Assembly (NCBI GenBank): GCA_004519485.1
Contig: CP038117.1
Span: 310,001 to 374,000 of the forward strand
Length of the DNA stretch: 64,000 bases
Direction of reading: 5' to 3'
Source of the DNA: Nannochloropsis oceanica
Lineage: Eukaryota > Sar > Eustigmatophyceae > Eustigmatales > Monodopsidaceae
The position numbers and the translations under genes were made by a program. Below the pieces are notes generated by a model. That model did not search any database and was not told where the DNA came from. It was given only the letters and a program-made list of their open reading frames with translations. Positions 31,906 to 42,517 of the stretch are shown here, one piece after another; position 1 is the stretch's first letter, and every line of letters starts with the position of its first letter.

Positions 31906-33787
31906 TTACTTTTTCGCTTTCTTGGCCGCGCTCTTCTTGGGAGCTGTGGGAGACGGAGAGAGACGGAGAGAGGGAGGGGGTGACAGATGAGAAGGATGGA
32001 GGGCAGGTCACGCATGCAACAAACTCATCGGGGCTGTAAAACGTCAAGTTGGGCTCCGTTAGGGTAGGTGGATGGGCAGTGGGAGGAAGGGAGGGCGAGG
32101 TGAGGAAAAGAGGGAGAGAGACATAGATGGAGGGCACATTTGGCTGGTTTCGGAACTTGTCGGCTTCGTCGGCGATGGGGATAGAGGCTTGCGTAAAGAG
32201 GGAGGAAGGGAGGGAGGGAGGAAGAGAGGGAGGACAAGACACCTACCAGGTTTCTTGGCCGCAGGTTTCTTGGAGACCTTAGAGGCAGCGGCCTTGGGCT
32301 GGTGGGGGATAGGGAGAGAGCGGAAGGGAGGGAGGGGTGGTTGGATTGGCGACCTCTCGACGAAGGGCGGCAGGGAGGGGACGGAGAAAACGGATGCTTT
32401 CGACGTCATGCATGTCTGGATCATCCGTGAACGGTTTTTGGTACCTTAGGGATGGCACTTCAGTATGGCAAAGGTACCAAACGTTGTTCAACGCTGATCC
32501 AGATGTGCATGACATTAAGGGTATCCGAAATATGGAAGGGGGCGCGGGAAGGACGGAGACTCACCTTGACAGCCACCTTCTTAGAGGCGGTCTTCTTGAC
32601 AGCCACCTTTTTAGGGACAGTCTTCTTGGCAGCCACCTTCTTGGGAGCTGAGAAATGAGGTGAGGGCGAGGTGAGGTGGAGGGTGGGCAAGGTGAGAGGG
32701 GACACCAGAAGTAGGGGAAAAGGAAAGTGAGATGTACCTACCGGTTTTCTTGGCAGCGGGCTTGCTCTTCTTGGCGGCCGTCTTCTTCGGGGCTGGATAG
32801 GGGAGGGCGGAGGATGGCATTGGTGAGGGAGGGAGGGAGGGAGGTAGAGGGGGCAACGAACCTACCAGTCTTTTTGGCAGCGGGCTTGCTCTTCTTGGCG
32901 GCCGTCTTCTTCGGGGCTGGATAGGGGAGGAAAATGAGAGCGAGGGAGGGGGGGAGGGAAATGAGAGCGAGGGAGGGATGGGAACGGTAAAGAAAAAGAG
33001 AGGGAGGTAGGAGGCAGGAACCGCAAAGAACCTACCAGTCTTTTTGGCAGCGGGCTTGCTCTTCTTGGCGGCCGTCTTCTTCTTGGGTACTGTATAAGAC
33101 GGAGGAAGAGAGTGGGGGACCGGTCAGAAGGAGGGAGAGAGGGCGGGTCAAGCATGCAACACAATTCTCTTAGTCCTCGGGGCTGTAAAACATCAAGTCG
33201 GGTTCCTGGGGGTCTGGACGCCCTCGCATCGTAGGCGGCCATGGAAGTAGGGGCAAGAGGGCATGAAATACAGTTCGAGACAAGTACAAGCACCTACCCG
33301 TCTTCTTGGCGACCTTCTTAACGGCCTTCTTGACCTTCTTCGCCGCGTCGCTGAGCTTGTACGAGGCCTTGACCTGAGGGAGGGAGAGTGGGCGAGGGTG
33401 AGTGAACGACCATCAATGCCAACTCACCAGCAAATAGAAGTCACCGAGGATTCAAATTATGCCTGAAAGCAACCACATAGATGAATAAGCAACCCCAGAC
33501 ACAAAGGAGCCCTCCCTCGTCCTCGTCCAGGATCTCATAAAGTTCCTCGCTCGTTCTCTTCCTGCCCACTCCAATGAGAACCTTATGCGTTCCACCCTTC
33601 TCCTCACCTTGATCAGCTTGCCGGCCGCGACGCCGGACTTAAGAGCAGCTAGGAAGCGGTGGTCAATTGTGATGGTCGGGTGCTGCTTGGCCAGGTAGGC
33701 CTTAATGGCTGCGGGAGAAGAGCCGCTGCGTTCCTTGAGGGCAAGGATGGCCTCCTTGATGAGGTCGTAATTGGAGGGCTTGGACAT
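31906..33787 (-). CDS. H1: Linker histone H1 with exon-repeat tail
   Basis: Eight exons: 33608-33787, 33298-33373, 33036-33089, 32866-32916, 32742-32792, 32565-32647, 32247-32298 and 31906-31943. All have GT-AG introns and join to 194 residues with frame preserved. Exons 1-2 encode the winged-helix globular domain (YDLIKEAILALKERSGSSPAAIKAYL, FLAALKSGVAAGKLIK, VKASYKLS). Exons 3-8 encode the lysine/alanine/proline tail. Exons 3, 4 and 5 are almost identical units (PKKTAAKKSKPAAKKT), all phase 1 at both ends, so they can be gained or lost without frame change. It binds linker DNA and compacts chromatin. It is divergent from histone H4. Confidence 0.92.
32392..32526. repeat. Imperfect inverted repeat (foldback) in H1 intron 6
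   Basis: Arms 32392-32447 and 32469-32526 are imperfect reverse complements, sharing blocks such as GTCATGCA, CTGGATCA, TGAAC and TTTGGTACCTT. They enclose a loop of about 20 bp, so transcript from either strand would fold into a long hairpin. Confidence 0.85.
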
Positions 33788-35082
<1,295 letters not shown>

Positions 35083-40569: not shown

Positions 40570-42133
<1,564 letters not shown>

Positions 42134-42517
42134 ATGGCTGGCAAAGGAAAGGCTGGCCGTGGTGCCGGAAAGAAGGGCGTGTCCCGTTCCTCGAAGGCTG
42201 GTCTCCAGTTCCCCGTGGGCCGTATCTCCCGCTTCCTCAAGAAAGGCCGCTACGCTGCTCGCGTGGGGTCCGGTGCTCCCGTGTACCTTGCCGCCGTCCT
42301 CGAATACCTGACGGCCGAGATCCTCGAGCTGGCCGGTAACGCTGCCCGTGACAACAAGAAGACGCGCATTATTCCTCGCCACGTCCAGTTGGCCGTCCGT
42401 AACGACGAGGAGCTCAACAAGCTGCTCGGTGGCGTGACCATTGCTTCCGGTGGTGTCCTCCCCAACATCCACTCCGTCCTCCTCCCTAAGACCAAGGCGA
42501 AGAAGGCAACCAAGTAA
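42134..42517 (+). CDS. H2A: Histone H2A
   Basis: Intronless 127-residue H2A: basic N-tail, [95 protein letters not shown] is continuous with the family, shown here by AGLQFPVGR and [13 protein letters not shown] as key motifs. The C-terminus ends KTKAKKATK without an SQ-E/D motif, so it is not the H2A.X type. A stem-loop lies 62 bp after the stop. No H2B gene accompanies it in this window. Confidence 0.98.

Follow-up and report, generated by a model that had tools for sequence, protein, structure and literature searches.

Evidence for tandem exon duplication in the tail of a linker-histone gene of Nannochloropsis oceanica

The lysine-rich tail of a predicted linker histone H1 in Nannochloropsis oceanica appears to have grown in whole-exon steps. 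The gene lies in the 64-kb stretch of DNA analyzed here (“the window”), and three of its adjacent tail exons are near-identical in sequence. Judging from the sequence, we consider it about 85% probable that the tail was built by tandem duplication of a phase 1-1 exon along with flanking intron, including a probable late crossover (or gene conversion) and an older copying event still visible in introns 2 and 7. Tandem exon duplication is already known as a process, of which this gene would be an unusual example. The original prediction of such a duplication for exons 3–5 is well supported by three features that are new here: a mosaic exon 4, a 14-nt acceptor common to two introns and without a third exact copy in the genome, and homology between introns 2 and 7.

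The gene and its three near-identical exons

The linker-histone gene is located on the minus strand (33787–31906) and was modeled as eight exons, with an open frame of 194 aa closing in TAA and with GT starts and AG ends in all seven introns. The product predicted from inclusion of every exon matches PF00538 over residues 4–66 (54.4 bits vs. a Pfam cut-off of 22.4), and three PDB sequences, i.e., 1ust and 1uhm (both histone H1) and 1ghc (GH1). The remaining 128 residues past residue 66 include 53 lysines, 33 alanines, and 12 prolines. This combination of a globular domain with a K/A/P-rich C-terminal tail is typical of linker histones, but the distribution of 194 residues over eight exons is not, and neither is the absence of any S/T-P-x-K/R motif across the entire predicted protein. 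Exon 1 (33608–33787, 180 nt, phase 0>0) encodes most of the globular domain, and exon 2 (33298–33373, 76 nt, phase 0>1) encodes its end and the start of the tail, leading into a GTAGGT donor. Overall, the 585 coding bases are spread across eight exons, and the tail is divided among seven of them. Animal H1 genes have few introns or none. In Oikopleura, three of the five H1 genes are intronless and the other two have one intron each, according to excerpts of PMC3156773, and the average gene of N. oceanica CCMP1779 is given as having 2.7 exons, with a mean exon length of 417 bp (PMC3499364).

A PF00538 search of the genome (29,264,788 bases, 32 contigs) yielded two places, namely this gene and a domain within a 1985-aa frame on C4, so that the former was the only canonical linker-histone gene found; the search ran exon by exon, and an H1 with a split domain could be missed by it. 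The C4 frame (L003:3395–9001 on G000:C4) holds a linker-histone-like domain above the Pfam cut-off, within a translation that we take to resemble an SNF2-type helicase or remodeller. The globular domain and tail start of H1 had no relative in viral or prokaryotic contigs, a comparison that is uninformative on real relatives. Within the window, where G+C content stays at 51–55% across 4-kb blocks, an H4 frame (34771–35082, named by eye) is arranged head to head with H1, with 983 bp between the start codons. Further on, H3 and H2A frames (40573–40980 and 42128–42517; Pfam core histones) are also head to head. These H4, H3, and H2A frames are each uninterrupted, unlike the eight-exon H1. Elsewhere in the genome, a core-histone domain spans three exons in what looks by eye like an H3 variant (L018, G000:C12:1135200–1136900), in contrast to the uninterrupted H3 of the window.

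Exons 3, 4, and 5 are found at 33089–33036, 32916–32866, and 32792–32742 (minus strand), with lengths of 54, 51, and 51 nt, exactly as originally predicted. Equally as predicted, all three are in phase 1 at both ends in the eight-exon model, are directly followed by GTAGGT, and encode one PKK(K)TAAKKSKPAAKKT unit each, which reads VPKKKTAAKKSKPAAKKT with an extra lysine in exon 3 and APKKTAAKKSKPAAKKT in exons 4 and 5. They thus display the hallmarks of tandem exon duplication, i.e., adjacency, similar sequence and length, and equal phase at both ends. Reading straight through the three exons unspliced also gives an open frame, yet exon 4 then falls in another frame.

The similarity between these exons extends to codon choice: exons 3 and 4 agree at all 15 shared codons, and exon 5 agrees with either of them at 12 of 15. 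The three codons by which exon 5 departs from the other two are all synonymous, and the residues are identical at 15 of 15 positions in every pair. This exceeds chance: when codons were drawn according to the tail’s own usage, a mean of 8.5 were identical and 15 was reached in none of 20,000 draws; with the usage outside exons 3–5, the mean was 8.2 and the largest value among 20,000 draws was 15. Used as a genome query, exon 4 DNA matched the three H1 exons alone (three matches, E up to 10). The start pattern CAGCYCCNAARAAR occurs four times in the window, always at H1 exon starts (exons 4, 5, 6, and 8), for an expected count of 0.03, and four occurrences were reached in none of 100 shuffles. 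However, a looser version of it (YAG, and no C after the second lysine codon) had 22 matches in the genome, four of them in H1, vs. 11 for its reversed control, hence the exon-start context alone is nothing special.

At the other end of the exons, a pattern joining the lysine codon to the GTAGGT donor (AARAARNCNGGTAGGT) had six genome matches (reversed control: three), five of which are the donors of H1 exons 2, 3, 4, 5, and 7, while the sixth lies in a second lysine-rich, AT-hook-like gene. We infer that the five GTAGGT donors of H1 may all descend from a single ancestral phase-1 junction. Introns 1 and 6 start with GTGAG donors and are in phase 0. Across 254 kb of genome, G|GTAGGT was found 23 times, five of them in H1, and was rarer than its reversed control (58), so that its status as a common donor in this genome is not backed.

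Frame, charge, and predicted splicing

The tail had also been predicted to be able to change by exon skipping without frame loss. This holds for exons 3, 4, and 5, which can be removed in frame in any combination, and for exons 6 and 7 as a pair. It does not hold for exons 2, 6, or 7 singly, the removal of which breaks the frame, exons 6 and 7 being symmetric solely together. The net charge (K+R−D−E) of the predicted H1 falls from 60 in the full protein to 53 when exon 4 or exon 5 is removed, to 52 when exon 3 is removed, and to 38 when all three are. Each of these three exons would thus raise the positive charge of a tail expected to be disordered by seven or eight, and may strengthen DNA binding in a stepwise manner. 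More positive charge and longer tails have been reported by others to strengthen H1 binding, as excerpted from PMC3156773.

One may therefore ask whether the exons are cassettes, i.e., whether alternative splicing varies the charge of the H1 tail by about seven per step and the duplication was kept for that reason. This scenario is compatible with an origin by duplication, and the in-frame skipping of exons 3–5 and of the 6+7 pair would suit it. Stepwise variation of a histone tail through splicing is known for Oikopleura H2A.Z (PMC3156773), and, according to a review, alternative splicing occurs in N. oceanica (PMC12702839). Nevertheless, we consider it rather unlikely: since the exons are near-identical, the product would be almost equal whichever one is included, and symmetric phase survives any frame-keeping duplication anyway. 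The resemblance to H2A.Z, namely a gene structure that permits stepwise splicing changes in a lysine-containing histone tail, also comes with differences, as the Oikopleura case relies on alternative acceptors in one exon and was confirmed by cloned PCR products, whereas the H1 case would involve whole duplicated exons.

Mutually exclusive exons, to which tandem exon duplication is linked in the abstract of a review (PMC9013439), are likewise unlikely here because exons 3–5 are near-identical. What the H1 gene has in common with the tandem exon duplications described in excerpts of that review and of Exonize (PMC12343006) is the presence of adjacent exons alike in sequence and length; it differs in that its copies are near-identical and each encode one repeat unit of a tail that is expected to be disordered. 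Taken together, a constitutive H1 with a tail grown in whole-exon steps is most likely, and regulated skipping of its tail exons is possible but unsupported.

Mosaic exon 4 and copied introns

We compared exon 4, extended into its introns by 14 bases on the upstream side and 15 on the downstream side, to exons 3 and 5. A site was taken as informative where exon 3 is distinct from exon 5 and exon 4 matches either one (a 3-nt indel being counted as three sites). In order, the 18 informative sites comprise 11 that read as exon 5, then six that read as exon 3, and a last one, within the intron, that reads as exon 5 again, so that a single switch accounts for 17 of the 18; two extra sites match neither exon. 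Exon 4 is thus a mosaic, with an acceptor and 5′ half like those of exon 5 and a 3′ half and donor like those of exon 3, and the switch continues into both flanking introns. Unequal crossing-over between exons 3 and 5 would leave such a pattern. The newest step was probably a crossover of this type, or a gene conversion of like outcome, within the core common to the older exons 3 and 5. It would have created a new middle exon that combines the acceptor side of one parent with the donor side of its partner, and would have turned the one intron that then separated exons 3 and 5 into two, introns 3 and 4.

These two introns resemble each other mostly at their ends. The final 14 nt of intron 3 (32917–33035), CCTCCCCTATCCAG, are identical to those of intron 4 (32793–32865), and, judged by both ends, the latter is a sister copy of the former. 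This 14-nt acceptor was found at two exact places in the genome, both in H1, with no third copy. Its reversed sequence also had two genome matches, which makes the count itself ordinary; what stands out is the placement of the two copies in neighboring introns. For comparison, identical pairs represented 4.8e-5 of all pairs among 791 pyrimidine-rich CAG 14-mers from 19 sampled loci. Over their whole length, introns 3 and 4 were not significantly similar (score reached in 12 of 200 shuffles), which suggests that their middles either diverged past recognition or are ruled by pyrimidine tracts. The score of intron 4 with intron 7 (43, reached in 2 of 200 shuffles) was above its score with intron 3 (36). 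Intron 3 also holds a 27-nt tandem repeat.

A second, older copy links intron 2 (33090–33297) to intron 7 (31944–32246). Their alignment score of 91 was reached in none of 200 shuffles (mean 26), and the best score obtained against 1254 genomic stretches was 41. Used as a genome query, the intron 2 block matched intron 7 and no third place, these counts being lower bounds. The likeness is confined to the 3′ halves of both introns; the 5′ halves were not significantly similar (59 of 300 shuffles reached their score). Two other pairs, introns 1-2 and introns 3-6, beat 200 of 200 shuffles with scores of 27 and 36, but did so through short pyrimidine tracts, and hence the 2-7 pair alone stands out. 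An older event would have copied the intron now present as introns 2 and 7. Overall, copied flanking intron sequence was detected in three forms: the acceptor of introns 3 and 4, the mosaic flanks of exon 4, and introns 2 and 7.

Could the 51-nt units instead have arisen as a minisatellite within one exon, with introns, e.g., introner-like elements, inserted later at an equivalent site in each? The internal 30-nt repeat of exon 6 indicates that within-exon repeat growth does occur in this gene, and the lack of significant whole-length likeness between introns 3 and 4 would be consistent with separate insertions. On the other hand, the mosaic switch reaches into both introns flanking exon 4, the 14-nt acceptor of introns 3 and 4 has no third exact copy, and the intron 2 block recurs in intron 7 but was detected nowhere else in the genome, unlike a dispersed family, with all 1254 sampled genomic stretches scoring far below introns 2 and 7. 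Introners are recognized by similar introns in many genes, and here the block was found at two places, both in H1 (again lower bounds). We thus regard this origin as very unlikely. It is even harder to believe that misassembly produced the three copies or that the gene is decayed: the copies do lie within about 350 bp, spaced by about 124–170 bp, a range in which collapse or expansion can happen, but each has its own differences and its own flanking introns, the frame is open, and no codon difference at the 15 shared positions alters a residue.

Several other features of these introns were recorded. Within the homologous parts of introns 2 and 7, both copies of a short stretch (33182–33148 and 32033–32008, respectively) read by eye as TTTTACAG followed by CCCCGA and, in the phase that H1 would use, as a short frame ending in TTG CAT GCN TGA, the two frames differing by 9 nt in length. 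These short frames may represent a last exon that is decayed or used alternatively. Copying of a block extending from intron 1 and exon 2 to intron 6 and exon 7 was considered but is not supported, as introns 1 and 6 showed no similarity (106 of 200 shuffles reached their score); the score of exon 7 with exon 2 was reached in 178 of 1000 shuffles. Intron 6 contains an inverted repeat (32391–32527) with 57-nt arms that are 74% complementary, and a predicted RNA fold of −58.8 kcal/mol (z = −7.5). As a repeated element, this hairpin was discarded, since a genome search matched itself alone. No Rfam match at gathering scores was obtained in the 64-kb window.

Distal exons, a second lysine-rich gene, and comparisons

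Exons 7 and 8 had been proposed as diverged relatives of exons 3–5. The part of this proposal that stands is a link between exon 8 (31906–31943, 38 nt including the stop) and exon 3, mainly through the upstream intron; taken alone, the exon sequence is weak for exon 8 and does no better than shuffles for exon 7. The scores of exon 8 with exons 3, 4, and 5 were reached in 118, 83, and 23 of 1000 codon-order shuffles, and those of exon 7 (32247–32298, 52 nt, phase 0>1, GTAGGT donor) in 462, 441, and 348. Exon 6 (32565–32647, 83 nt, phase 1>0), the start of which resembles those of exons 4, 5, and 8, was not significantly similar to exons 3–5 either (51–181 of 1000 shuffles). The phases of exons 6 and 7 also differ from the 1>1 of exons 3–5. 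At the exon boundaries, a 40-nt repeat family spans the acceptor together with the first exon bases in exons 3 and 8 (75%) and in exon 6 (68%), and the 3′ end of exon 7 with its donor and intron start belongs, along with exon 4, to a 62-nt repeat family (76%) that is partly a pyrimidine tract. By exon sequence alone, the kinship of exons 6, 7, and 8 with exons 3–5 is therefore not clear. Among the pairs tested within exons 6–8, the sole significant one was exon 7 (32298–32247) with exon 8 (31943–31906), for which 7 of 1000 shuffles reached the score. Exon 6 further contains 2.6 copies of its internal 30-nt repeat (32565–32642), which indicates that the tail lengthens by within-exon repeats too.

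The second lysine-rich gene, which holds the sixth match of the donor pattern, is located at G000:C3:160235–161632 (L017:634–2031) and was modeled by eye as seven exons encoding a K/A/P-rich protein of 167 aa, with one intron that would be GC-AG. It contains the AT-hook-like motif KRGRP twice (Pfam AT_hook, 13.2 bits, under the cut-off of 17.4). Like H1, it displays KKSKPA units and an 83-nt phase 1-0 exon directly after a phase 1-1 exon; unlike H1, it has a single phase 1-1 exon and no PF00538 match. Its last four exons run 0>1, 1>1, 1>0 (83 nt), and 0>stop, compared to 0>1, three times 1>1, 1>0 (83 nt), 0>1, and a last exon in H1. In the genome, a KK-x-KPA codon pattern was found at eight places, three in H1, four in the second gene, and one elsewhere that reads KKRKPA, vs. 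none for the reversed control.

At the protein level, the residue order of H1 and the second gene product was alike beyond composition: three tests, on the whole second protein (z = 5.7), on its last four exons (z = 8.8), and with two of the three H1 cassettes removed (z = 6.0), each had a score that 0 of 1000 shuffles reached. At the DNA level, the H1 tail was not similar to the second gene beyond codon usage (150 of 1000 codon shuffles reached the score in the gapped test, and 70 of 150 in the ungapped one). As genome queries, a piece of the H1 tail returned one match, H1 itself (E up to 0.001), and the second protein matched nothing beyond its own gene (four matches, E up to 0.1). Together with the exon 4 DNA query, these searches do not join the two genes by homology. 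A common origin of the two tails is thus suggestive only: either the genes are old relatives, in which case H1 may have three copies of an exon that is single in the second gene, or similar demands may have led to similar units.

A broader scenario would make the lysine-rich phase 1-1 exon a reusable chromatin-tail cassette, present once in the AT-hook-like gene and three times in H1, with a number that varies by unequal crossing-over within the genus and a regulated inclusion that changes charge in steps of seven; at present, we see this as a long shot. The cassette-plus-donor pattern had no match in viral contigs, which is uninformative on real relatives, and a match of the acceptor pattern on C1 was set aside, since it turned out when read to be a stretch without such an exon.

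Among the literature matches listed, judged by titles and the starts of abstracts, no report of duplicated tail exons in a linker histone was identified. Stramenopile linker histones are also described for Sargassum horneri, in which, as excerpted from PMC10858212, there are six H1 genes. The main text of that paper does not use the words intron or exon, hence it offers no comparison of gene structure. The AlgP protein of Pseudomonas, an H1-like protein with KPAA repeats (PMC9239181, in part), shares with H1 a set of tail-like repeats whose number is altered by rearrangement. It is however bacterial and has no spliced exons, and a predicted helical N-terminal domain takes the place of the H1 globular domain.

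H1 tails vary in length and charge among species, and tails of such low complexity seldom record their changes. In this H1, whole-exon steps and a readable recombination product would make tail growth datable and comparable among strains, and clean changes of tail charge, one unit at a time, could be used to examine how it affects chromatin.
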